From an uncultured Myxococcales bacterium (GTDB taxonomy: Bacteria > Myxococcota_A > UBA9042): 34,333 bases of DNA. Made by a program: the position numbers and the translations under genes. Below, piece after piece: positions 1 through 12,389 of the stretch (positions are counted from its first letter, which is position 1; each line of letters starts with the position of its first letter). Below the pieces are notes generated by a model that saw only the letters and a list, made by a program, of their open reading frames with translations, did not search any database and was not told the DNA's origin. The stretch spans positions 1 through 34,333 of the forward strand of contig CALENB010000082.1 in assembly GCA_937910235.1 (NCBI GenBank). The letters are read 5' to 3'.

Positions 1-857
1 CGAATACCGCGTCGCGACAGCTCAGCAGCGTAGTCGCGCAGCCACTTCTTGTGGATCGTGAACACATCATCCGCGTACCACAGCAGCTCAGGGTCGTAGC
101 GCGCGACGATCGCCTCGACCTCATCGGCGACGTTTGCGGGCGAGCGGCGCCGATGGCTGTGGCCGTACACCGCGTGGCTGCACCACGTGCAATGAAAGGG
201 GCAGCCCCGCGCGGTGATCAAGCTCACCGAGCCCTGACCATGATGTCGTCGCCAGGTGCGCACGTAGGCGTCGATGTCGATCAGGTGTCGAGCGGGGAAG
301 GGCTGCGCGTCCAAGTCGAGCAGCTGTCGCCGCGGTACGTTGCGCAAGATCTCGCCGCTGCCGGCCACCAGCTCGCCCTGCGCGCCGTGCGTCGCGCGCG
401 CACGCCACACCAACCCTGGGATGCCGCTGAGGTCATCGCCCGCCCGGCCGGTGTGCTGCTGCCAGAAGGCCGCCAGCTCCTCCAGCGTCTCCTCGCCCTC
501 GCCAATCGCCACCGCGTCGGCGCCGTGGTCCAGGTACGCCTCCGCCCAGTTGCCTGGATCGGGTCCACCGACCACCACGCGCGCCCCGACCTGCTTGCAG
601 GCCCGGATCATGGGTAGCACGCGCTTGCGTGTCAGCATGTTGGCGTAGATCCCGACCACTAGCGGCCGATGTTCTTGCAGCGCCCGCACAAAATCGCCAG
701 CGCCCATGAACGTGCTGTCGAAGACGCCGACCGCCACCCCCTTCGCTTCGAGGTGGCCGGCGATATAGAGGATGCCAAGCGGTGGGTAGGGCCGCATGGT
801 CTGGCGTTCGTGGGCATCGTCCCAGAGGTGGTAGCCGTGGGTCAGCAAGACGTCCAT
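1..857 (-). CDS. B12-binding radical SAM protein (partial, runs off left edge)
   Basis: The first 285 codons of a cobalamin-binding-domain radical SAM enzyme are present; the 3' end lies outside the window. The N-terminal part carries MRPYPPLG near residue 20, as in the neighbouring paralogue, then a Rossmann-like B12-binding region with VVVGGPDPGNW and GEGEETLEEL. The radical SAM cysteines appear as GCPFHCTWC at about residues 217-225 (CxxxCxxC), the ligands of the 4Fe-4S cluster that cleaves S-adenosylmethionine. The ATG at 857 follows the TGA of the upstream gene after one base, so the two are almost certainly cotranslated. Substrate cannot be inferred from sequence. Family members methylate unactivated carbons or rearrange lipids, hopanoids and natural products. 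The cysteine triad sits at the same residue numbers as in the paralogue, consistent with tandem duplication. Confidence 0.88.
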   Translation of the reverse strand, partial: MDVLLTHGYHLWDDAHERQTMRPYPPLGILYIAGHLEAKGVAVGVFDSTFMGAGDFVRALQEHRPLVVGIYANMLTRKRVLPMIRACKQVGARVVVGGPDPGNWAEAYLDHGADAVAIGEGEETLEELAAFWQQHTGRAGDDLSGIPGLVWRARATHGAQGELVAGSGEILRNVPRRQLLDLDAQPFPARHLIDIDAYVRTWRRHHGQGSVSLITARGCPFHCTWCSHAVYGHSHRRRSPANVADEVEAIVARYDPELLWYADDVFTIHKKWLRDYAAELSRRGI

Positions 858-858
858 G

Positions 859-2403
859 TCAGGCGTCCACCTGCGGCGATGGCGCCGCCGCTTGCTCGGG
901 GCTCTTGTCGCCATGGATCGCCGCCACGCCCACGTGCTGCACCAGCTGCAGCCGCCGCAACGCCCGCTCAGCGAGGGGCAGCGTGGCGCGATCGACGACC
1001 ATGCGCACGGCCTGCCTGAGCGCCGCCCGGCCACTTGGCCATGCGCGTGTCCGCAGCCGCTGCCAGGTCCGCGCGCTGCGGTATTCCTTGTGGATCACCG
1101 TGTGCAGCTGGCGGTAGAACGCCGTCGTGAACGGCCCCTCGTAGAGCATGTCGAGATCGGCGGAGTCCACCCAGTTCTGCTTCGCACCCAGCTGGGTCGA
1201 GACCTTGTCGAAGAACGGCGTGCCCGGCAGCGGATAGCTCACCGAGATGCCAATGTCGTCGGGCTGGCACACACGCACCATCTCTCGGGTCAGCGCGATG
1301 TCCTCTGCGTCCTCGCCCGGGAAGCCGAACTGCAGAAAAAACGCCACTTTCACGCCGTGGCTGCGCAGCTGGCGGGCGGCGTCGTAGATCTGCGTCACCA
1401 ACGTGCCCTTGTCCATGGCGTCGAGCACCTTCTGGCTGCCGCTCTCCGCGCCGATCCACACGATCTCACAGCCTGCCTCGGCCAGCGCGGCGATCTCGCC
1501 CGGTCGCAGCAGCAGGTCGGCGCGGCTCAGGCACTTGAACGGCCGCGCCACGCCGCGCGCCTTCGCGAGCGCACCGTAGCGCTGAAACCAGCCTCTCTTC
1601 AGGCCCATGATGTCGTCCATGAACCAGATGTGATCGGGCGCATAGCGCTCAACCAGCAGGGCCTGAAGCTCGACGATGCGCTCGGGGCTGTGGCTGTTGT
1701 AGCGCTGGCCCCAGATGGGTTTGGCGCACCAGTTGCAGTGGAACGGGCAGCCTCGTGTCGTCACCAGGTTGAGCGAGAACAGGCCGTGATGCGCCAGCCA
1801 CAGCCGGCGATAAGGCTCGATGTCGATCAGATCCCAGGCCGGCACCGGCAGCGCGTCGAGCGCCTTCATCACTGGCCGTGACGGCGTCTGCGCGAGCTGG
1901 TCGTCGGCCAGCCAGGTCAGCCCCAAAATGGCCGAGAGATCCAGCTCCGCAGCGCTTTGACGAACCCGCTCCAGATGCAGCGTCAGCTCCCGCAACGTCG
2001 CGTCGCCCTCGCCGCGGATGACGTAGTCGGCCCCCGCATCCAAGTACATCCGGGCGTGATCGGTCGCGTCGGAGCTGCAGACCATCACGGTCGCGCCGCG
2101 GCGCTTGGCGGCCTGAATCATCGTCAACGCCGCGTCCCGCATGCGGGTCAGGCACATCTTCGAGAGGTAGTTGAAGTTGTCTTCGAAGATCACCGCGTAG
2201 CGCGGCTGCTCTTGGCGCAGGGCCTGCTCGAACTGCGCCTCGCTGTCGGCGAGCATGGCGTCGAAGACCGCGACGTCGAGCCCGAGCTCCCGCACGACCG
2301 CCGCCGCCTGCAAGCTGCCGAGCGGCGGATAGGGCCGCATCGCGTCGTAAAGTTTGGGGTCAAAACGTAGGAAGTAGCTCTGACCAAACAGCACATCACT
2401 CAT
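859..2403 (-). CDS. B12-binding radical SAM protein
   Basis: A 514-aa protein with an N-terminal cobalamin-binding region (MRPYPPLGSLQ near residue 25, DAGADYVIRGEGDATLREL further on) and a radical SAM barrel with GCPFHCNWC at about residues 217-225. IWIGAESGSQKVLDAMDKGT and FFLQFGFPGED are typical later barrel motifs of this family. The ATG at 2403 is chosen over the longer open frame because it overlaps the upstream stop by 8 bases (translational coupling) and begins directly with the conserved region; the 49 residues upstream lie inside the neighbouring gene. The product should use SAM, a 4Fe-4S cluster and probably cobalamin in the cytoplasm. The reaction is unknown. It lies between a nucleotidyltransferase-like gene and a second B12-radical SAM paralogue, which suggests consecutive or paired steps on one substrate. 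Confidence 0.92.
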   Translation of the reverse strand: MSDVLFGQSYFLRFDPKLYDAMRPYPPLGSLQAAAVVRELGLDVAVFDAMLADSEAQFEQALRQEQPRYAVIFEDNFNYLSKMCLTRMRDAALTMIQAAKRRGATVMVCSSDATDHARMYLDAGADYVIRGEGDATLRELTLHLERVRQSAAELDLSAILGLTWLADDQLAQTPSRPVMKALDALPVPAWDLIDIEPYRRLWLAHHGLFSLNLVTTRGCPFHCNWCAKPIWGQRYNSHSPERIVELQALLVERYAPDHIWFMDDIMGLKRGWFQRYGALAKARGVARPFKCLSRADLLLRPGEIAALAEAGCEIVWIGAESGSQKVLDAMDKGTLVTQIYDAARQLRSHGVKVAFFLQFGFPGEDAEDIALTREMVRVCQPDDIGISVSYPLPGTPFFDKVSTQLGAKQNWVDSADLDMLYEGPFTTAFYRQLHTVIHKEYRSARTWQRLRTRAWPSGRAALRQAVRMVVDRATLPLAERALRRLQLVQHVGVAAIHGDKSPEQAAAPSPQVDA

Positions 2404-3442
2404 GTCGCGCCACTGCAGTAGGGTCGGCGCGCCGTACTCCCTGTCTGCCAACCGCCGTGTCGCGGGCTGTCTCGGCGTGATTCGGCCCAGCTTTGCGCTT
2501 GCGCAGTCGCTTGCCCAGCACCTCGTCAAAACGACGCTCCAGCAGCCCAAATCGCTCGAGCGCGTCGCGATACCGGGTCACGATCAGGCCGCGATTGTCG
2601 CTGGTGTGCAGCTTCAGAATCCCGGGGCGCAGCAGCACATCCGCGTCACCGATCGCGGCCGCTTTGTTGCGAATCCGCCGGCCCAGCAGCGCCCGCGAGC
2701 CGCGCTCGACCAGCCACCACTGCGGCCACAGCCCAAGCTCCAGGCCGCGCCGCAGCAGCGGTTCGACGGGCAGCGCTCGCCACAGCTGCTCGCGCTCGCG
2801 AGACGACGCGTTGGGCATCAGCTGCGCCACCCAGCGGTTGTTGTCCACCATGTGCTGCAGCCACGCCTCGCCGACCAAGGGCCGCAGCGCCATGAGCTCA
2901 TGACCCGTGAAGAGATCGCCGCCATCTGGCACGGCGACGTGCACCCGATCGACCAGGTAGTTGGCGCACAGCACCTCGCGGCAGCCGAGCACCCGCGCGA
3001 GCGTGATCATCAGCGCGTACACCGTCCACGCGCGGCCCTTCTCGGCGACGATGAACAAGTCGAGATCATTGTCCTGAATCGAGTTCTTTCGGCTGGTCCC
3101 GCCGGAGAACGCGACCATTCGCACGTAGGGAATCAACGTCAGCAAGCGCAGCACGGTGATGTGCTGCGCGATGAGCGCGTCGGTGCCGTGCTCCTGGCGC
3201 GCGCGATGCGCACACAACGCGCCGCGCCCGTGGAGGTGATAGAGGTCGCCGGTCCGCTCCATTTTGTCGCCCAGCCACGGATCGTCGTTCAGGTGTCGCT
3301 GCACGTCGGCGAGGCTCGCCTGCATCAGCAGCAGCTGGCGGTGGATCTCGTGGGCGTGCATCGGAAAGTCGAACAGATCGGCGTACAGCAAGGCGCGCAG
3401 AATCGCGGCTGAGAGTTCGTCTGGACGATGGTCAGGTGGCAT
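2396..3442 (-). CDS. nucleotidyltransferase-like protein
   Basis: A 348-aa protein from the ATG at 3442. The N-terminal segment (ILRALLYADLFDFPMHAHEI) looks like a small helical or winged-helix region. It is followed at about residue 120 by a polymerase-beta-type nucleotidyltransferase signature, FSGGTSRKNSIQDNDLDLF: a glycine pair followed by D-x-D, the metal-binding acidic residues of this superfamily. The frame stays open up to a TTG at 3538 (380 aa), but the extra 32 residues look unlike a conserved domain, so the ATG is preferred; no clear Shine-Dalgarno sequence decides. The end overlaps the radical SAM start by 8 bases. Family members transfer nucleotides to small molecules, proteins or RNA, and I cannot say which applies here. 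Being locked between carF and the radical SAM genes suggests a role in the same pathway. Confidence 0.8.
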   Translation of the reverse strand: MPPDHRPDELSAAILRALLYADLFDFPMHAHEIHRQLLLMQASLADVQRHLNDDPWLGDKMERTGDLYHLHGRGALCAHRARQEHGTDALIAQHITVLRLLTLIPYVRMVAFSGGTSRKNSIQDNDLDLFIVAEKGRAWTVYALMITLARVLGCREVLCANYLVDRVHVAVPDGGDLFTGHELMALRPLVGEAWLQHMVDNNRWVAQLMPNASSREREQLWRALPVEPLLRRGLELGLWPQWWLVERGSRALLGRRIRNKAAAIGDADVLLRPGILKLHTSDNRGLIVTRYRDALERFGLLERRFDEVLGKRLRKRKAGPNHAETARDTAVGRQGVRRADPTAVARHE

Positions 3443-3559
3443 CGGGACACGCTCAAGCCAGGGCCACTCGGAGCAGCGCGGGTGGTCGACGCCAGTGTCG
3501 CTACCCCCCTCCGCCCTTGGCAAGATCAGCCGCCGCAACCCCGCTGGATTCTAGGCCGC

Positions 3560-4261
3560 TTAGGACTTGAGAAACTTGGGATCTTGGTAGGCTGCGACGC
3601 CCGTGATTTTTTCGATCAGCTGCTCCGTGCGCAGCCAGAACTGGATCTTGTCGAGCGGCGGGTTCAGCCAACCGCTGGTGATGCAGTAGTACTTATCGTG
3701 CGGCGCGGTGTGGTGCACGTTGTGGTGCTCCACGTCGAGCACGAGTCGCGCGCGCTGCAAGGCCGCGATCACGGCCGGAACGTCGTCTTGGTGGGCCCAC
3801 TTGTGGAACTGATTGGTGAGAAACACCCAGAACGCCAAGCTCACCAGCGCGGTGAACAGAAACAGCCCCAGCGTGGTGTCGACGCCGATCAGCCAGGCCG
3901 ACGCCATCATCGGTACGGTCACGATGGAGTTGTTGCCGTTGGTCTCGACGAAGTCGTGATACGTCATCCCCTTCGGGTCGCTGTGATGCTCGCGAAACGG
4001 CTTGACGTAGTTCTGGCCGACGAGGGGCGTCTCCTCGGTGCCGTAGCGATCGGCCATCCAGTGCACAAAACCGGAGCAGAAGTCGGCGAGCACGTATCCC
4101 GTGAAGACCGCGGCCGCGATCCAGCCATACTGGAGCCCTTCGGCCACGCCGAGCGCCCGCCACGCCCCGGCGGCAACCAGCGCAAAAAGGCACGTAATCG
4201 CTGCGATCTCGATCGCGCGATGCGCTGGGGAATAGTCGTAGCTGGGTTTGCCGTCTGCCAT
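3560..4261 (-). CDS. carF: CarF-like plasmanylethanolamine desaturase
   Basis: A 233-aa integral membrane protein of the TMEM189/PEDS1/CarF family. Known members introduce the vinyl-ether double bond of plasmalogens; in Myxococcus xanthus CarF is also needed for the singlet-oxygen response that switches on carotenoid synthesis. The histidine-rich iron-binding motifs are all visible: FVHWMADRYG, FREHHSDP, FHKWAHQ, and EHHNVHHTAPHDKYYCIT near the C-terminus. Hydrophobic stretches at about residues 20-60 and 115-145 fit membrane helices. The length matches the family. The start is preceded by CCGGAGAAACGAGACC, which contains a plausible ribosome binding site. It is the first gene of a minus-strand group leading into the nucleotidyltransferase and radical SAM genes, which suggests an ether-lipid or light/oxidative-stress role for the whole group (inference). 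Confidence 0.92.
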   Translation of the reverse strand: MADGKPSYDYSPAHRAIEIAAITCLFALVAAGAWRALGVAEGLQYGWIAAAVFTGYVLADFCSGFVHWMADRYGTEETPLVGQNYVKPFREHHSDPKGMTYHDFVETNGNNSIVTVPMMASAWLIGVDTTLGLFLFTALVSLAFWVFLTNQFHKWAHQDDVPAVIAALQRARLVLDVEHHNVHHTAPHDKYYCITSGWLNPPLDKIQFWLRTEQLIEKITGVAAYQDPKFLKS

Positions 4262-4519
4262 CTGTTGGTCTCGTTTCTCCGGGCTGCGTCGCCAGCGCAG
4301 GTCACCCCGGCGCGCGTGCTCGGCAAGGCGGCAGTGTACCCTCGCAGGCTCACCTGTAAACCTTGGAGTGGCCGCTCAACAACCTATGGCGCGCGGGTGA
4401 CTGGCCATAACGCGGCGCCGAACACCACCGCCGCCTATCGTCCGGTTCTCGGTGCCGTCTCGAATTGATCGTTTCATTCGTTGGTCGCAACTCATAGGTT
4501 GATCTCCGGGAGCGCGCCA

Positions 4520-5434
4520 ATGGCTCTCATTACCCCGCGAGTTCAGATGGATCTCCTCGCCGCTTTCCGGCAACTCCAGCCCCTGACGCCCGGCCTACCG
4601 GAGAGCCATCGCCGCGTGGTTAGTGAAGCCGCGCAGCTGCTTTTCGCCGAGTTACATCGCATCGCGGGGCGGGATGTCCGTGGGTTCGGCTTCTCTGAGG
4701 CTGACCGCGACAACGTCGTGCAGACCGTGTTGTACAGGATGTTGCAGTCCGGCCCGCGCGGCGTGCGTGAACACGACCCGCAGAGCGCCGACGCCGTCTG
4801 CGGCTGGCTCACTCAGGCCGTGCGCAACGCCATGCGCGATCTCTTTCGCAAGCGAAAACATGTCGTGCAGCCGCGCAGTGTTGGTAAGGATGGACAAGAA
4901 CACGACTGGTTCGCGCAGCAGCCTAGCGACGACAGCGTCGACGATGGTCTGATCGTCGAGCGACTCGAGCGCCGACGCGCGAGTGAGGTGGTGCAGCGCG
5001 CCCGTGTTCGGCTGTGGACCGTGCTTGTGCCACGCGCTGTCGCTCGCAAAGAGCGCCGTTCGCCGGGTGCCGGTGGGCGTCTGCATGTCACCTTGGAGGA
5101 GCTGCGCGCCGCGGTAGCGGAGGGGCTCGATGTCGGCGAGGTCGCGCGGCGATCGCTGGTCGCAGAGGGCATCCCCGCCGTCGCGCCGGCCCTTGGCAAA
5201 CGCCGGACGGCCCTCGACAAGCGGTACCAGCGCGCGCGCGAGGCGATGCTCGCGGTCATCGACGAGGACGCTGACAGCGGCGCCGTTGTGGCCCTCGTCG
5301 GTAAAGCGATGGTCTTGGTCATGCAGGACGAATTGTACCTGCAACGCCGAGAAAACAGCTTGGTCGCGCGCAGTCGGACCGCTGCGATCGAGACCGATCC
5401 TCAAAGCCCACCGGGAGGTCCGCCGATTCGATAG
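4520..5434 (+). CDS. sigma-70-like (ECF-type) RNA polymerase sigma factor
   Basis: A 304-aa protein. Residues 55-125 resemble sigma region 2: SEADRDNVVQTVLYRML followed by WLTQAVRNAMRDLFRKRKH, the pattern of ECF factors in which the WL..VRN..DLFRKR helix contacts core enzyme and the -10 element. A second block near residues 215-250, PALGKRRTALDKRYQRAREA, could be a degenerate region 4 helix-turn-helix. The linker between the blocks is longer than usual. The ATG at 4520 is favoured because GGGAG lies 7-8 bases upstream; a TTG at 4481 is possible. The C-terminal tail is Pro/Arg-rich. The downstream gene is on the same strand 70 bases later. No anti-sigma factor with a transmembrane helix is visible nearby. 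Confidence 0.68.
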   Translation: MALITPRVQMDLLAAFRQLQPLTPGLPESHRRVVSEAAQLLFAELHRIAGRDVRGFGFSEADRDNVVQTVLYRMLQSGPRGVREHDPQSADAVCGWLTQAVRNAMRDLFRKRKHVVQPRSVGKDGQEHDWFAQQPSDDSVDDGLIVERLERRRASEVVQRARVRLWTVLVPRAVARKERRSPGAGGRLHVTLEELRAAVAEGLDVGEVARRSLVAEGIPAVAPALGKRRTALDKRYQRAREAMLAVIDEDADSGAVVALVGKAMVLVMQDELYLQRRENSLVARSRTAAIETDPQSPPGGPPIR

Positions 5435-5504
5435 CGCCGCCCGCGTCGACTGTCAGAGTCGCCGGCGTGCGACGTCATTACCGGTAGCCCAAGGAGGAGT
5501 TCTC

Positions 5505-6623
5505 ATGTCCAGTCACAACGTCCGTCTCTCTCTCGCGCCGGAGGCGCTCACCCGTCTTGGCCTCGATCAAGCGCGTCTAGGTGACGCCGTGCGCGTGTCG
5601 CCGGCAGAGCGTCGCCAGCGTGCGCGCCGCCGCAGCTCTCGTTCACGGCGGGCGTGGGAGCCCGGTTTTGGCGGCGGCCTGTATGAGGAGACGTCCGACC
5701 CTGGCATTGACGTTGCCGGGTTTGAGCTGCGCGCCTGCAGGGTCGCTCACGGTGAGGTCTATCGGCTTATCTGCGACACCGCCGATGTCTCGGTCGACGT
5801 ATCGGGCGCCATCGCGCCCTGGAGCCGCGATCCAAACGACCCGCGCGTCCTCTACATCGAGCCCGGTCCTGACGTCGTCTATCGCATCTCTCGGGCCGAC
5901 GGCACCGGCGTCGTCGTCGTCAGCGAGGCCGGCAAGGGCGCGTTTGCCTATGGCTTCCGGCCCAAGACGGGCATGGTCGATATTCGTCGCCTGCTGCGCA
6001 GCGCCGCGACCTGCCCAGCTGAAGCGTGGCTAGGCGAGGCCGATCCCGATTGGCTCCGTGACCTGGTTCGCACGCGGGCGGCCCGGCAGGGCGCGTTCTC
6101 TGCCGCTGTCGCCGTCGGCGCCTGGATGCGCCTGCATGAGCCGGCCGCCGCGGCGCGGGTCATGAGTCTGGACGCGCTGCTGAGCGGCAACATCGACACC
6201 GTCACCTCCCAGCCGCTGGCCTGGTTCGAGGCGTTGGACCCTGAACACCGCCGCGCCGGGCTCTCAGGTGGGCTAAGTCACACCGGCGCGCTGGGCGAGC
6301 ATCTGGACCTGCTGCGGTCGACGCTCGACGTCGATGACCGGGCGTGGCTCGACCGATTGCTCAGCGTGCTGCACATCCGCGATGATCTTGAAGGCCTGCG
6401 CACGCTGCTGTTACACACCGGCGAGGTGGATCTGCTCGACGCCGATCTCGCCGATTTCGACGCCAAGGGACGCCGCTTTCTGGGCTCGTTGCCGCGTCCG
6501 GTCAGCGTCTGGGACGACCGCCTTCGACGCGTGGCGCAGCTCGATCCGACCGCGTGGTGGGCCGACGTGGCGCGCGAGCGCAACCGCGATGGCACCCGCC
6601 CGCGTATGCGCACCCAGCACTAA
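5505..6623 (+). CDS. hypothetical protein downstream of the sigma-like gene
   Basis: A 372-aa protein of unrecognised family. The ATG at 5505 has a near-perfect ribosome binding site (AAGGAGGAG, 5491-5499) and is therefore preferred to in-frame upstream starts that lie inside the preceding gene. The N-terminus contains an Arg/Ser-rich patch (about residues 28-45), then a beta-rich region of about 100 residues (GIDVAGFELRACRVAHGEVY, YIEPGPDVVYRISRADGTGV), then a helical, leucine-rich C-terminal half. There is no signal peptide and no transmembrane helix, so it is probably cytoplasmic. Its position after a sigma-like gene makes a regulatory partner conceivable, but nothing in the sequence proves this. 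Confidence 0.8.
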   Translation: MSSHNVRLSLAPEALTRLGLDQARLGDAVRVSPAERRQRARRRSSRSRRAWEPGFGGGLYEETSDPGIDVAGFELRACRVAHGEVYRLICDTADVSVDVSGAIAPWSRDPNDPRVLYIEPGPDVVYRISRADGTGVVVVSEAGKGAFAYGFRPKTGMVDIRRLLRSAATCPAEAWLGEADPDWLRDLVRTRAARQGAFSAAVAVGAWMRLHEPAAAARVMSLDALLSGNIDTVTSQPLAWFEALDPEHRRAGLSGGLSHTGALGEHLDLLRSTLDVDDRAWLDRLLSVLHIRDDLEGLRTLLLHTGEVDLLDADLADFDAKGRRFLGSLPRPVSVWDDRLRRVAQLDPTAWWADVARERNRDGTRPRMRTQH

Positions 6624-6627
6624 CGCA

Positions 6628-6677
6628 GCGCGCCGCCTCGACCCGTACCTGCGGCGGTAGGGATCGAGGCGGCGCGC
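6628..6677. terminator. bidirectional hairpin terminator
   Basis: A perfect 14-bp inverted repeat: GCGCGCCGCCTCGA at 6628-6641 and its complement at 6664-6677. The stem extends by CCC/GGG with a single bulged A. It sits between the stops of two convergent genes (plus-strand stop at 6623, minus-strand stop at 6698) and can serve both. No long U-tract follows on either strand. Confidence 0.75.
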
Positions 6678-6697: not shown

Positions 6698-8629
6698 CTA
6701 GAAGTTCTGACCCAGGTACTCGATGTTGACGTAGCTGGTCGTGCTGCCGCCATAGATCGCGTAGGCCGTGCTGTTGTCCGCGTTCGCCCTCGCCTGAAAC
6801 TCAAGATACTGGCCAGCGGCCATGTACACCGTGGCCAATGTATTCTGCGAGAAGTACTGGTAGGTGCTGTTATCGGAGTCGTAGCTGTACTTCACCACCG
6901 ATCCGTTACGAAGAATGCGCGTGTAGCAGTACGTGTACGAGCGGCAGTAGTTCTTGTAGAGGACCCGGTAGTAGCCGGCTTTCTTGAACGTGATGCGCCC
7001 GGTCTTGTAGGCGTCGGTGTGCCAGTACTTGTCGTAGCTCGTGCTGCTGGAGTCGCCTGTCGGTGGCTTGTAGGTGCTGACTGTGAAGTAGTCCGCCGCC
7101 GTGTTGAGCTCCGTCTTGTCGAGGCAGAAGAAGTTCCAGCTGCTTGAGTAGCGCCGATTGATGGAGCAGTAGCCCTGGTAGATGATCGGCTTGCTCTTGG
7201 CCACAAACCACCCGGCGCCGTCGCAGACCTGCAGGCCGTAAGTCGCGTTCCAGCGCAGCATGCCCTTGTTTACGCTGCTGCAGGCGTTCGTCGTCCCGAT
7301 CTTCACGCCGCCTGAGCTGTACTGGTCGCCGTTGACGGCGATCTTCTGATTGCTGAGCGTCTGGATGGTGATGGACCAGGTCGCGATCCAACCGTCCGTC
7401 TTCTTCACGGCGTCGCAGTACTTGGCGTTGCCGCTGGCCTGAAGGATGCAGAACCCGTTGTCCAAGACCTTGAGGTTCCAGAGCCCCTGCGGGTTTTTGC
7501 CGATCCAGTAGCCGACGTCGCCGCTCTTGGGCTTGGCCGTTGGCGTGAACGTCTTCTTGTAGATCTTGCTGTCTTTGGCGCCGCAAGGGTCACACAGCTT
7601 CCACCCGACCTTCTTGTCGTTCGGCGGCAGGATGACCATGGAGACGACGCTCAGGTCGGTGTTCTCGACGTGCACGGAGACCGAGAAGGTCTGGGCCGTG
7701 CCGATGTTCGGGAAGGTGATGTTGCTGATCGCCTCTTTGCCCTGGAAATCGGGGATCGGCACCAACTTCTGGGTCGTCGTGATCGTGTCGACGAACTGAT
7801 TTGAGATGAGGTCGTTGGAGATCTCGTTGAGGCCGTCCTTCGGCAGCGCCGTCGGGTCGAGCGCCGCGACGCACAGCAGCGTTCCGTCGGCGTTGATGCC
7901 CTTGACCACTTCGCCGGCCTTGGCGCAGCTGCCCTTGGGCATCTTGAGGCCGGTGAGCTTGGAGCCGTCGCCGATGAAGCCGGTGGCGGTGATAGTCGTC
8001 GCGGCGACGTCGCCGGTGAAGGTGCCGTTCTTCGCCTTCAGGCTGTACGCGCCGAGATCGACGTTGCCGTCGAACTTCAGCTCGTTGACCGAGACGCAGC
8101 CGGTGCAGGCCAGGTCGATCGCCGGGCCGCCCTTGTTGGTTGACGCCGCATAGTTGAAGCCGATCTTCGACGCCGAGATGCCGCCATTGGCGAGCGCCGC
8201 ACCACCGACGCAGCTCGTGCACGCCAATCCGTTGGCCTGCTCCGCGACGAGGGCGAAGGGGGTCGCGTGCACACGCTGGCGGGGCAGCTCGGGGTCGGTC
8301 CCGATCGTGATGCCGAGCCACGCCTGCGCCATGCCGGCCAAGACCTTGGCGTCGAGGGCTTTGGTGGTGCCCAACGCGTACGCAAACCGGCCACCCTTGA
8401 CGTCGAGCTTGACGCCAGCCTCGGTCCACGTCGCGGTCTTGGCGCCGAGCGCCGTGTAGAGCGAAAACGTCATGCTGTAGGAGCCGTCAGCCGCAGCGCC
8501 ACCGCCGGCGCTGGTCAGCGCGCCTTCGATCGTGCTGGTCGTCGGAACCGCCGCGCTGGCGTCGACTGCGAGCATCGCGCACAGCGCCGCCGCGATGAGC
8601 GCTACGCTCGTTTTTGTCATCTTTCGCAT
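6698..8629 (-). CDS. secreted stalk/tip protein, copy A (P-domain-like plus jelly-roll-like tip)
   Basis: A 643-aa exported protein. Residues 1-26 form a signal peptide ending in VDASA. Residues 28-270 are a stalk with two CxxC pairs (ACTSC, ACTGC) and short repeats resembling tail-fibre stalks (GNVDLGAYSLKAKNGTFTGD, TATGFIGDGSKLTGL). Residues of about 285-432 resemble a proprotein-convertase P-domain (ITFPNIGTAQTFSVSVHVEN, GLWNLKVLDN, DGWIATWSITIQ). The last 200 residues form a Tyr/Ser/Cys-rich beta domain with C1q/TNF-like spacing (GRITFKKAGYYRVLYKN ... YMAAGQYLEF ... NIEYLGQNF). Residues 22-405 are encoded by DNA that appears identical to the next gene, whereas the signal peptide and tip differ. 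The product is probably a surface or extracellular adhesive protein (inference). The start has CCGGAG 10-14 bases upstream; M4 is an alternative start. Confidence 0.85.
   Translation of the reverse strand: MRKMTKTSVALIAAALCAMLAVDASAAVPTTSTIEGALTSAGGGAAADGSYSMTFSLYTALGAKTATWTEAGVKLDVKGGRFAYALGTTKALDAKVLAGMAQAWLGITIGTDPELPRQRVHATPFALVAEQANGLACTSCVGGAALANGGISASKIGFNYAASTNKGGPAIDLACTGCVSVNELKFDGNVDLGAYSLKAKNGTFTGDVAATTITATGFIGDGSKLTGLKMPKGSCAKAGEVVKGINADGTLLCVAALDPTALPKDGLNEISNDLISNQFVDTITTTQKLVPIPDFQGKEAISNITFPNIGTAQTFSVSVHVENTDLSVVSMVILPPNDKKVGWKLCDPCGAKDSKIYKKTFTPTAKPKSGDVGYWIGKNPQGLWNLKVLDNGFCILQASGNAKYCDAVKKTDGWIATWSITIQTLSNQKIAVNGDQYSSGGVKIGTTNACSSVNKGMLRWNATYGLQVCDGAGWFVAKSKPIIYQGYCSINRRYSSSWNFFCLDKTELNTAADYFTVSTYKPPTGDSSSTSYDKYWHTDAYKTGRITFKKAGYYRVLYKNYCRSYTYCYTRILRNGSVVKYSYDSDNSTYQYFSQNTLATVYMAAGQYLEFQARANADNSTAYAIYGGSTTSYVNIEYLGQNF
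7412..8566. repeat. 1155-bp direct repeat, copy 1 (core of stalk gene A)
   Basis: Comparison with 9584-10738 at a constant offset of 2172 bases shows no mismatch that I could find, including third codon positions. The first differences are at 7411 and 7406 on one side and at 8567 on the other. Beyond them the two genes diverge quickly on the signal-peptide side and gradually on the tip side. Confidence 0.93.
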
Positions 8630-8681
8630 CTGTGATTCACTCCGGTTTTAGGCGACACCGAAGGTCCCGCGTTCGATTTCT

Positions 8682-8697
8682 GGCCCCCATCGTGCCA
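8682..8697 (-). promoter_or_regulatory. possible sigma-54-type promoter for stalk gene A
   Basis: The minus strand reads TGGCACGATGGGGGCC, matching the -24 element (TGGCACG) fully and the invariant GC of the -12 element with correct GG-N10-GC spacing, but not the flanking TT. A start site about 12 bases downstream would leave a leader of roughly 40 bases before the ATG at 8629. Sigma-54 promoters are common in myxobacteria; no enhancer site was identified. Confidence 0.3.
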
Positions 8698-8780
8698 AAA
8701 TGTCGCACAAAAGCTCAAGTTACCTGGGTGAATCTCCCCAAACGGCGATCGGGACGACGTTATCACGGGCCAAAACTGGT

Positions 8781-8812
8781 CGCTCCGCCTCAGGAGGACC
8801 CGAGGCGGAGCG
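8781..8812 (-). terminator. hairpin terminator of stalk gene B
   Basis: A perfect 11-bp inverted repeat, CGCTCCGCCTC (8781-8791) and GAGGCGGAGCG (8802-8812), with a 10-base loop. It lies about 50 bases beyond the stop of the gene ending at 8864. On the minus strand the stem is followed by a short TTTT run within ACCAGTTTTGG. It would separate transcription of the two stalk genes. Confidence 0.6.
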
Positions 8813-8863
8813 ACGCCACGCCGAAGCGCGGATAGACCCTAGACGACGCCGGTCGCGGCGACC

Positions 8864-10807
8864 CTAGTCAGGAAGCGGCCCGACGTACTCGAACGTCACG
8901 CGGCTGTGTGAGCCGTTCGCGTTCCAGAGGTGCCAGTTGTACTGGTTGCCGCAGCCGTCGTGGTACGTCCACGGCTCGATGTAGTCACCGATCTTCAGCG
9001 GCGCGGTGTACTGAAGCTGATGCTGCCGCCAGCCCTGTGCACCGTTCACAGCCGCGTTGTCGTGGCTGCACGCTTTTTGACTGCCATTGACGCGGATAGC
9101 GAGGTCCTGCTGGCCACAACCGTGCTGAATCGCGTAGAATTTCATGCGGTAGAAGCCGGACACGTTAATCGTCAGCCGGCCGCTCGTGCTGCGCGTGAAG
9201 TGCGATTGGCTGTAGTCGTAGTCCACGCCGTTGAGGCAGTACAGGCGCCAGCCACCCTGCTGGTTGTGGCTCGTGCAGCCGCCGGACCAGATGACCGGCG
9301 AAGCCTTCGCCGCCACCCACTTGTACGAGACAGCGCCCGACTTTGGCCAGTTCTTGTGGCAGGCGCGCAGACCGTACTTCGCGTCCCACGAGAGGCTGCC
9401 GAGCGTCGCGGCGCTGCACGTGCCTGGCTTGCCGAGCGTGAGGTTGCCGCCGATCGTGGCGTCTTTGCCGAGGTTGATGCTGCCGGAGTTGTACTGGTCG
9501 CCGTTGACGGCGATCTTCTGGTTGCTGAGCGTCTGGATCTTGATCGACCAGGTCGCGATCCAACCGTCCGTCTTCTTGACGGGGTCGCAGTACTTGGCGT
9601 TGCCGCTGGCCTGAAGGATGCAGAACCCGTTGTCCAAGACCTTGAGGTTCCAGAGCCCCTGCGGGTTTTTGCCGATCCAGTAGCCGACGTCGCCGCTCTT
9701 GGGCTTGGCCGTTGGCGTGAACGTCTTCTTGTAGATCTTGCTGTCTTTGGCGCCGCAAGGGTCACACAGCTTCCACCCGACCTTCTTGTCGTTCGGCGGC
9801 AGGATGACCATGGAGACGACGCTCAGGTCGGTGTTCTCGACGTGCACGGAGACCGAGAAGGTCTGGGCCGTGCCGATGTTCGGGAAGGTGATGTTGCTGA
9901 TCGCCTCTTTGCCCTGGAAATCGGGGATCGGCACCAACTTCTGGGTCGTCGTGATCGTGTCGACGAACTGATTTGAGATGAGGTCGTTGGAGATCTCGTT
10001 GAGGCCGTCCTTCGGCAGCGCCGTCGGGTCGAGCGCCGCGACGCACAGCAGCGTTCCGTCGGCGTTGATGCCCTTGACCACTTCGCCGGCCTTGGCGCAG
10101 CTGCCCTTGGGCATCTTGAGGCCGGTGAGCTTGGAGCCGTCGCCGATGAAGCCGGTGGCGGTGATAGTCGTCGCGGCGACGTCGCCGGTGAAGGTGCCGT
10201 TCTTCGCCTTCAGGCTGTACGCGCCGAGATCGACGTTGCCGTCGAACTTCAGCTCGTTGACCGAGACGCAGCCGGTGCAGGCCAGGTCGATCGCCGGGCC
10301 GCCCTTGTTGGTTGACGCCGCATAGTTGAAGCCGATCTTCGACGCCGAGATGCCGCCATTGGCGAGCGCCGCACCACCGACGCAGCTCGTGCACGCCAAT
10401 CCGTTGGCCTGCTCCGCGACGAGGGCGAAGGGGGTCGCGTGCACACGCTGGCGGGGCAGCTCGGGGTCGGTCCCGATCGTGATGCCGAGCCACGCCTGCG
10501 CCATGCCGGCCAAGACCTTGGCGTCGAGGGCTTTGGTGGTGCCCAACGCGTACGCAAACCGGCCACCCTTGACGTCGAGCTTGACGCCAGCCTCGGTCCA
10601 CGTCGCGGTCTTGGCGCCGAGCGCCGTGTAGAGCGAAAACGTCATGCTGTAGGAGCCGTCAGCCGCAGCGCCACCGCCGGCGCTGGTCAGCGCGCCTTCG
10701 ATCGTGCTGGTCGTCGGAACCGCCGCGCTGGCGTCGACGGCAAAAAGTGCGCAAATGGCCGCGGCTAAAATCGCCGCCCTTTTTCCTCGCATGGGAATGA
10801 ACTGCAT
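8864..10807 (-). CDS. secreted stalk/tip protein, copy B (P-domain-like plus distinct tip)
   Basis: A 647-aa paralogue of the neighbouring stalk protein. The signal peptide (residues 1-28, also ending VDASA) differs in sequence from that of copy A. Residues 24-407 (stalk and most of the P-domain-like region) are encoded by the apparently identical 1155-bp block. Similarity then falls stepwise: NQKIAVNGDQY is still shared, after which the tips diverge. The B tip is Trp/His/Asn-rich (GRLTINVSGFYRMKFYAIQH ... IEPWTYHDGCGNQYNWHLW ... VTFEYVGPLPD). It keeps the same overall jelly-roll-like layout and paired cysteines. The ATG at 10807 is chosen because GGAGAGA lies 8-14 bases upstream and the signal peptide begins there; the longer frame (51 more codons) runs into the promoter region. 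The product is probably secreted or surface-exposed. Confidence 0.85.
   Translation of the reverse strand: MQFIPMRGKRAAILAAAICALFAVDASAAVPTTSTIEGALTSAGGGAAADGSYSMTFSLYTALGAKTATWTEAGVKLDVKGGRFAYALGTTKALDAKVLAGMAQAWLGITIGTDPELPRQRVHATPFALVAEQANGLACTSCVGGAALANGGISASKIGFNYAASTNKGGPAIDLACTGCVSVNELKFDGNVDLGAYSLKAKNGTFTGDVAATTITATGFIGDGSKLTGLKMPKGSCAKAGEVVKGINADGTLLCVAALDPTALPKDGLNEISNDLISNQFVDTITTTQKLVPIPDFQGKEAISNITFPNIGTAQTFSVSVHVENTDLSVVSMVILPPNDKKVGWKLCDPCGAKDSKIYKKTFTPTAKPKSGDVGYWIGKNPQGLWNLKVLDNGFCILQASGNAKYCDPVKKTDGWIATWSIKIQTLSNQKIAVNGDQYNSGSINLGKDATIGGNLTLGKPGTCSAATLGSLSWDAKYGLRACHKNWPKSGAVSYKWVAAKASPVIWSGGCTSHNQQGGWRLYCLNGVDYDYSQSHFTRSTSGRLTINVSGFYRMKFYAIQHGCGQQDLAIRVNGSQKACSHDNAAVNGAQGWRQHQLQYTAPLKIGDYIEPWTYHDGCGNQYNWHLWNANGSHSRVTFEYVGPLPD
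9584..10738. repeat. 1155-bp direct repeat, copy 2 (core of stalk gene B)
   Basis: Partner of 7412-8566, in direct orientation. It encodes residues 24-407 of stalk protein B. Perfect identity next to strongly diverged ends points to recent duplication or gene conversion limited to the core. Confidence 0.93.
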
Positions 10808-10936: not shown

Positions 10937-10939
10937 GCG

Positions 10940-10969
10940 CCGCACCGCACCGCACCGCACCGCACCGCA
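10940..10969. repeat. pentanucleotide microsatellite (CCGCA)6
   Basis: Six exact copies of CCGCA lie in the divergent intergenic spacer, three bases after the palindrome. Because the unit is 5 bp and outside any supported gene, changes in copy number would alter promoter or operator spacing rather than protein sequence. Confidence 0.9.
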
Positions 10970-11060
10970 GTTCCGGCCACCGCGCGACGATCGTCGCTTG
11001 CGCCTTGCCTCGCCCGTGCTTCACTCTCCGCACGTCGCTACCCTTCCCCATGGAATCGCT

Positions 11061-12389
11061 GTGAGCTCAGAGCCGCCACCCGCTCACTCGTCGTCTGAGA
11101 TGCTGGCCCTCGCCGGCATTCGGCGCGTGGATTTGAACGCGACTGAGCTCGGTGCAGGCGCGCTGCTCGATAACCGCTACGAGGTGCTCGCGCTGATCGG
11201 CGAGGGTGGATTTGGTCGCGTCTACGCAGCGCGGGATCAACTGCGCGGTCGCGAGGTCGCGATCAAAGTGCTCGCGCTCGCCTACGGTGGCGGCGGCGAT
11301 CAGGCCATCGCGCGCTTCGTCCGCGAGGCCGAGATCACGGCCAGTTTGGTCCATGGCAACACGGTGCGGGTGTTCGATTGGGGGATGACACACGACGGTC
11401 AGCTCTTTCTGATCATGGAGCGGCTGCGTGGCGAATCCTTGCGAAACCGACTCGACCGCGCGCGGCTGGACGGCAGAACTCTGGGCGACCACGAGACGCA
11501 CGCGATCGCCATGCAAGTGCTCCAGAGCTTGGCTGAAGCGCACGCCTCCGGGCTCGTGCACCGTGATCTGAAGCCGGGGAACATCTATCTGCATCGCCTC
11601 GCAGGTCGCACCGAGGTGGTGAAAGTCATCGATTTTGGGATCGCGCGCCAATCTGGGAGCGAGATGACCCGCGCGGGCCAAGCGCTCGGCACGCCTACGC
11701 ACATGAGCCCAGAGCAGGCGCAGGGGCACGTGATCGATGGTCGCAGCGACCTCTATTCGCTGGCCGTCGTGATGTACGAGTGCCTTGTCGGCGAGATGCC
11801 GTTCTACGATCCCGACAGCGCGCTTCTGACGATGATGATGCATGTCACCCGCCCGATCCCGGATCTGGTCGCCGAGGCGCCTGTGCCCGTGACCCAGGCT
11901 CTCGCCGCCGTCGTGGTGCGCGGGCTGGCGAAGTCGCCGGACGAGCGTTTGGGCGACGCCACGGCGATGCGCGCCGCGCTCAAAGCCGTCGGCTTACCCC
12001 GCCGCCCGAGCGCGCGTACGGGTGGCGGGCCGCTGCCAGCACGGTATTCGACGCCACGACAGGACCGGGTCGAGCGTCGGCTACCGAGGCGGGTCTCCGA
12101 CGTGGTGTCGACGCGGGCGCGGCCGATTCCCAACGTGACGCCGATCGCGGGGCCGCCCAGCTCCGGCCCGCCCAGCTCCGGCCCGCCCAACTCCGGCCCG
12201 CCCAGCACACAGAGCCCCGGTTCAGGATCACCACCGGCGGTGCCGCCGTTCGCCCCCGTCACGGCGTCTGAGCCGGTCGACGTTGCCGTCGTCGCGTCCG
12301 GTGCCGGCAAAGTGCGGGGCCAGCGCGGTCGCATGCTCCATGCCGCCGACACGCAACGGTTGGTCGATCGCAACGAGAAGGAGAAGTAG
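11061..12389 (+). CDS. Ser/Thr protein kinase
   Basis: A 442-aa eukaryotic-type kinase. In order: Gly-rich loop GEGGFGRVYAARD at about residue 45, the lysine in VAIKVL, helix C FVREAEIT, catalytic loop HRDLKPGNIYL, DFG as IDFGIAR, activation segment GTPTHMSPEQAQG, then SDLYSLAVVMYECL. All catalytic residues (K, E, HRD Asp, Asn, DFG Asp) are present, so it should be active. The C-terminal 120 residues are Pro-rich with GPPSS repeats. There is no transmembrane helix or sensor domain, so it is a soluble kinase. The start is uncertain: GTG at 11061 (weak GGAA upstream) is used here, and ATG at 11100 and TTG at 10998 are alternatives. A gene with a good ribosome binding site follows after 2 bases. 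Confidence 0.93.
   Translation: MSSEPPPAHSSSEMLALAGIRRVDLNATELGAGALLDNRYEVLALIGEGGFGRVYAARDQLRGREVAIKVLALAYGGGGDQAIARFVREAEITASLVHGNTVRVFDWGMTHDGQLFLIMERLRGESLRNRLDRARLDGRTLGDHETHAIAMQVLQSLAEAHASGLVHRDLKPGNIYLHRLAGRTEVVKVIDFGIARQSGSEMTRAGQALGTPTHMSPEQAQGHVIDGRSDLYSLAVVMYECLVGEMPFYDPDSALLTMMMHVTRPIPDLVAEAPVPVTQALAAVVVRGLAKSPDERLGDATAMRAALKAVGLPRRPSARTGGGPLPARYSTPRQDRVERRLPRRVSDVVSTRARPIPNVTPIAGPPSSGPPSSGPPNSGPPSTQSPGSGSPPAVPPFAPVTASEPVDVAVVASGAGKVRGQRGRMLHAADTQRLVDRNEKEK
12151..12208 (+). repeat. 15-bp in-frame tandem repeat in kinase tail
   Basis: About 3.9 copies of a GCCCGCCCAGCTCCG-like unit encode GPPSS, GPPSS, GPPNS and GPPST in the Pro-rich C-terminal linker of the kinase. The 15-bp unit keeps the reading frame if copy number changes. 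Confidence 0.85.

Follow-up and report, generated by a model that had tools for sequence, protein, structure and literature searches.

The window analysed here, 34,333 nucleotides in length, is the entire contig C82 of G000, a 7.1-Mb draft genome of an uncultured Myxococcales bacterium in 593 contigs. On its minus strand we found two tandem genes encoding secreted proteins, hereafter A and B. Gene A (6698-8629), delimited by its open reading frame and by relatives from genome searches, encoded a protein of 643 aa with a signal peptide, a stalk and a C1q-like head. Its twin B (8864-10807), delimited by its open reading frame and leader alignment, encoded 647 aa when read from the ATG at 10807, and the 698-aa open reading frame starts at an upstream GTG. 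Directly after the stop of A, a candidate terminator was read from the sequence, an inverted repeat with 22-nt arms (6628-6677, minus strand).

A direct comparison showed that positions 7412-8566 in A and 9584-10738 in B are identical letter for letter, without N, over 1155 bp at an offset of 2172 (DNA match 100%), which confirmed the exact identity, synonymous sites included, that a sequence-only reading of this DNA had claimed. This core runs in A from residue 22 to about residue 406 and takes in the end of the signal peptide, an N-terminal beta domain, a linker and most of a P-domain. Read in frame, the match comprises 385 codons, and the absence of any difference at its roughly 282 synonymous sites puts the 95% upper bound of dS at about 0.011. 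Over the whole alignment of A and B there were 319 mismatches in 1851 aligned sites; when these were shuffled (2000 trials), the longest identical run had a mean of 33 and a maximum of 63, against the 1155 observed. At the 5' edge of the core (8567 upward), inside the signal peptide, identity breaks off sharply, with 14 of the next 34 positions mismatched. The 3' edge is gradual and consists of a 116-bp transition zone at the end of the P-domain (7296-7411 in A, aligned to 9468-9583 in B, minus strand) with 13 mismatches, beyond which the tips are unrelated in sequence. The sequence-only reading had described one block with divergent ends; the identical core and the diverged leaders and tips were borne out, but the transition zone had been overlooked. 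This zone suggests an older layer of homogenisation beneath a very recent one, and it matters because it hints at two ages of homogenisation side by side. No similarity was found between the intergenic and promoter/upstream regions of A and those of B.

Both proteins begin with a leader in which a hydrophobic core and an AxA-type end are visible, and are predicted from this to be exported. The two signal peptides (8549-8629 in A and 10721-10807 in B, minus strand) have diverged to 67% identity of aligned leader bases. In A the leader is followed by the N-terminal beta domain (residues ~29-130), a linker that was modelled with low confidence and contains a GDGSKLTGL motif, a P-domain of the proprotein-convertase type (residues ~288-427; 7349-7768, with its counterpart in B at ~9521-9940) and the head. 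Neither A nor B itself gave a significant Pfam match: P_proprotein (PF01483) stayed below threshold in both, and BclA_C in A reached only an E-value of 0.47. Among 66 family members Pfam recovered P_proprotein in 23 (best E 2.3e-7), COLFI in 18, Fibrinogen_C in 12, CTHRC1_C and TLD in 3 each and C1q in 2. AlphaFold2 models of A and B had a mean pLDDT of 75 and 73 and a low pTM of 0.41 and 0.37, respectively, and are therefore usable for single domains only. The P-domain region of A was mostly modelled at pLDDT >90, and the P-domain models of A and B match Kex2, with 1ot5 and 1r64 as Foldseek matches for the region in A. For the heads (A, 6698-7282; B, 8864-9418; minus strand) the monomer models match C1q-domain chains with a TM-score by target of ~0.7-0.8, and both heads are predicted to have a C1q/TNF-like jelly-roll fold of about 130-150 residues. 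Heads of the C1q type suggest putative trimers. A sequence search of the PDB with A alone returned no matches, and a search with the family alignment gave marginal ones only (e.g. Adiponectin, E 0.17). No known cell-surface anchor domain was detected by Pfam and NCBIfam searches. The terms stalk and fibre for the shared part describe a shape that we infer. An earlier description of the proteins as modular ligand-binding fibres is made plausible by the modular heads (C1q, CTHRC1_C, Fibrinogen_C/COLFI and TLDc).

In two relatives (L066:2136-4037 and L076:1262-3187) the same stalk was joined to a CTHRC1 C-terminal domain (E 1.5e-39 and 2.5e-37), which is known chiefly from animals. A further relative (L103:1361-3553) was a secreted bacterial protein with a C-terminal TLDc domain (E 3.6e-28); TLDc is best known from eukaryotic proteins.

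The twin genes belong to a large family. The core recurs at many other places in G000, with 66-75% nucleotide identity over the longer DNA matches, and a protein search of the same genome gave 23 match segments, of which some are split or truncated at a contig end. More copies of the core carrying different tips, for which the sequence-only reading had proposed a search, were found across G000. Matches occurred in 49 of the 53 genomes searched, with at least 20 in most members of family f1. Phylum-wide, many genomes matched the N-terminal domain only, and long stalk matches were largely limited to the window's own family. A search of genome contigs with a single sequence returned none, and the search with the family alignment gave matches. 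All genomes compared are draft MAGs, several of the sister genomes being labelled Myxococcales, and the comparison of species rests on one genome per species. Contigs in these MAGs often end inside the core. Contigs C924 (L064:1-127) and C439 (L065:1877-2003) of G003 have an exact 127-mer within the core in common, so that a longer tandem array is probably split over the two. In G000, contigs C26 (L074:1-961) and C227 (L078:5754-6758) end within what is apparently one family gene, and their flanks match both sides of a tandem pair on G001:C309.

In sequence comparisons across this family, stalks often clustered by genome and tandem array while heads clustered by orthology. Among the 30 most similar stalk pairs 29 were from within one genome, compared with a within-genome share of 492 in 2389 for all pairs, and within genomes tandem stalk pairs had a median nucleotide identity of 78% versus 63% for non-tandem pairs (p = 2e-5). 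The first gene on G001:C98 (g1) and the gene on G003:C802, for example, have heads with 87% aa identity and stalks with 73.6% nucleotide identity, and these stalks were 88.9% and 85.2% identical to paralogues from their own genome with unrelated heads. Approximately unbiased (AU) tests rejected stalk sisterhood in four of five pairs of head orthologues (p = 0.19 for the fifth), among them B with the first tandem gene of G002:C10 (g1; p = 9e-5) and the pair of G000:C47 and G001:C201, which are syntenic in their downstream flanks. The core tree placed A with B (support 100) and likewise joined the G002 tandem pair (support 100) despite the syntenic loci. A breakpoint analysis of core and tip, also proposed from the sequence, showed that identity in other homogenised pairs falls at the same two breakpoints as in A and B. 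The syntenic tandem pair on G001:C309 and G000:C26/C227 combined head orthology with an identity of neighbouring stalks that was raised in places. Not all members were homogenised, and head and stalk orthology were kept together in C279/C257, C249/C31 and C162/C52. Outside the window's genus, homogenised stalks were not seen in G006, G007, G010, G011 and G014 with two query genes; in single-query searches the stalk matches in these genomes were mostly ~65-75% over longer matches. The idea of gene conversion homogenising the core, first raised for A and B, is thus extended by trees, AU tests and identity ranks to recurrent concerted evolution within the genus.

An identical core might also be maintained, without any recombination, by very strong purifying selection acting on its DNA or protein, and among paralogues the core is indeed less diverged than the heads. 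Between sister species, however, orthologous stalks had a dS of 0.7-1.4 and an aa identity of 66-74%, so that the core tolerates change freely. Plain constraint at the nucleotide level was ruled out by this dS, and we give selection without recombination practically no weight as an explanation.

The heads have a different history. The head of A was 79% identical (aa) to that of a gene on G001:C163, and elsewhere nothing was closer than ~45%. The nearest relative of the head of B was that of the first tandem gene of G002:C10 (45% aa), followed by the group of C201, C47 and C439. The head tree assigned A and B to different groups, both with full support, and a tree uniting them was rejected (AU p = 0.0004). 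On this tree the twin heads split before the species did. The diverged leaders of the twins are likewise old. Among head orthologues dN/dS was 0.10-0.52 for heads and 0.14-0.34 for stalks, and in gene A the head was better conserved than the stalk relative to the orthologue. Heads in three sister species are, as judged by these values, inherited as orthologues under purifying selection. Head variation lies between genes, without rapid change inside a gene, and the set resembles a stable repertoire. Searches with both twin heads recovered no orphan or free-standing head cassettes; heads sit on full genes only. The suggestion that the tips are free to vary is not supported, given the orthologues across species and their dN/dS. 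Hypervariable heads under positive selection are unsupported by the same values. A surface diversification system, as the sequence-only reading had put it, does not agree with the age of the heads and the lack of orphan head cassettes in our search.

Synteny allowed us to ask where homogenisation had taken place. The downstream flank of the twins (3-4270) is syntenic with G002:C10, which has a family tandem pair at the same site and in the same orientation, and the first gene of this pair bears the nearest relative of the B head. The stalk of B was therefore probably overwritten in place. Genes on G000:C47, G001:C201 and G003:C439 have downstream flanks in common and related heads, and the C201 stalk groups with other G001 genes. 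Both cases, C82/G002:C10 and C47/C201/C439, fit stalk overwriting in place. Synteny was absent between gene A and its G001 head orthologue (C163), which indicates that movement of genes or heads has also occurred in the family. In the trees the A/B stalk groups with the stalk of the A head orthologue in G001 (sister support 98 in one tree, 81/66 in the other), which makes A the probable donor. Raw identities slightly favour some G003 genes with other heads (77-79%, versus 75.6% to the A head orthologue), so that donor and direction are uncertain and the direction lacks firm resolution.

A recent tandem duplication, followed by replacement of head and leader in one copy through recombination in the stalk, would likewise yield an identical core with different ends. 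The orthologue of the A head at another G001 locus shows that heads or genes do move, and the two signal peptides, alike at 67% of leader bases, are related. Against this, B was probably present earlier, as the nearest relative of its head is the first tandem gene at the syntenic G002 site. The leader, promoter and intergenic region have also diverged, so that a duplication needs two separate replacements, and swapping of heads is at odds with the lack of free-standing head cassettes. The conflict between stalk and head moreover repeats at other, syntenic loci, which argues against simple duplication. We consider this explanation unlikely.

The assembly itself might have produced the identity by giving slightly different real cores one consensus or by expanding a loop in error. 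The G000 draft is split into 593 contigs, an exact repeat of 1155 bp is longer than usual short-read k-mers, and a G003 contig end has exactly 127 bp in common with another member, resembling a break in a de Bruijn graph. The unique leaders, tips and intergenic stretch nevertheless join both copies in one contig and require two genes whatever the consensus. In the separately assembled sister genomes stalk pairs were near-identical (89-96%) and non-identical, and homogenisation is therefore real in kind. Contig ends inside family genes of G000 had no k-mer in common with the other contigs tested. An assembly effect is in our judgement very unlikely. The strong homogenisation can be trusted, and its exactness, as opposed to near identity, is less sure because all genomes are draft MAGs in which an assembler could write one consensus twice.

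The identical core of the twins is thus probably the result of segmental concerted evolution by gene conversion in a large stalk-and-head family. The shared stalk would consist of the N-terminal beta domain, the low-confidence linker and the P-domain, and the C-terminal head would probably set the ligand. Homologous recombination between paralogues, mostly tandem neighbours, would write one stalk over another, with conversion tracts bounded by the limits of homology, which lie in the signal peptide and at the P-domain end, and each gene would thereby retain a leader, promoter and head of its own. The last conversion in the window would be very recent; the B head would have stayed put, and A and B now have one stalk. 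The members may act as recognition proteins with a common stalk for export and assembly and with stable, differing ligand specificities. Gene conversion has also been proposed for mollusc FREPs.

Segmental concerted evolution is already known from outer-membrane adhesins of Helicobacter pylori, homA/homB and segment 3 of babA/babB (PMC2795765, citing Pride and Blaser 2002). As described there, one segment of the paralogues groups by strain and is homogenised through recombination within genomes while the other diverges, as in the family studied here. By the same account the H. pylori case concerns two to three outer-membrane paralogues within a species, whereas the myxobacterial family has at least 20 secreted paralogues in each genome, with homogenisation over the N-terminal two thirds and a set of unrelated folds in the rest. 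Polymorphic toxin systems (Rhs, CDI and others) combine a constant N-terminal delivery region with a C-terminal domain exchanged by recombination (PMC3482391), and thus resemble the family in having a constant carrier and differing C-terminal domains. Unlike these toxins, the family has no toxin domain, no immunity gene that we could see and no orphan C-terminal cassettes in our searches, and its heads are binding domains of animal type inherited as stable orthologues. The single toxin-type Pfam match among the 66 members (E 0.006) was below its cut-off, and with heads on full genes only we rejected the polymorphic-toxin reading. Bacterial C-terminal domains of CTHRC1 have been reported before (PMC7058181), and BclA and bacterial CTHRC1-like proteins similarly bear a C1q-type jelly-roll head at the C-terminus of an exported protein. 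Where the partner domain of described bacterial C1q/CTHRC1-like proteins is known, it consists of collagen-like repeats rather than a beta domain and P-domain, and in the family the same stalk also bears fibrinogen, COLFI and TLDc heads. Mollusc FREPs are secreted multigene families with fibrinogen-type recognition heads on a common scaffold (PMC3313920, PMC7588048). They differ in being animal immune genes with an IgSF scaffold, which is non-homologous to that of the family, and somatic diversification. The stalk-and-head family appears undescribed in the papers searched: in literature on myxobacterial fibrinogen, C1q and TLDc families and on bacterial CTHRC1, with thin coverage of subscription papers, we found no account of the family or its concerted evolution, nor of several animal-type heads borne on a P-domain stalk.

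This family is a bacterial case, and a tractable one, of proteins with one half evolving in concert among the members and the other half carrying inherited, fixed specificities. Requirements common to all members (export, anchoring, assembly with siblings) can in this way be told apart from the property that has to differ, the ligand. The occurrence of several animal-type extracellular recognition domains on one bacterial scaffold also bears on the origin of such domains. We tentatively propose, as a possibility with the odds somewhat against it, that genomes of this lineage each encode tens of secreted recognition proteins as a germline repertoire, with animal-type heads (C1q, CTHRC1_C, fibrinogen/COLFI and TLDc) on one stalk. 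Gene conversion might keep the stalks compatible, e.g. for mixed assembly or for a shared export or anchoring partner, and supply homology for the movement of heads between loci, which would make the repertoire a bacterial counterpart of invertebrate repertoires of the FREP type. Homogenisation may also explain why contigs in MAGs of this group often break off within family genes, with the risk that copies are undercounted.

Some further features were observed around the twins. Open reading frames at 4481-6623, one of which had a weak match to sigma-70 region 2, lie between the twins and the syntenic flank; in G002 only ~190 bp separate the pair from the flank, so that there was either an insertion in the window or a deletion in G002. 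Upstream of gene B we observed a short run of GGTGC-type repeats (10938-10970; minus strand gcggtgcggtgcggtgcg), and a divergent gene for a Ser/Thr protein kinase (10998-12389) starts ~190 bp from the start of B.
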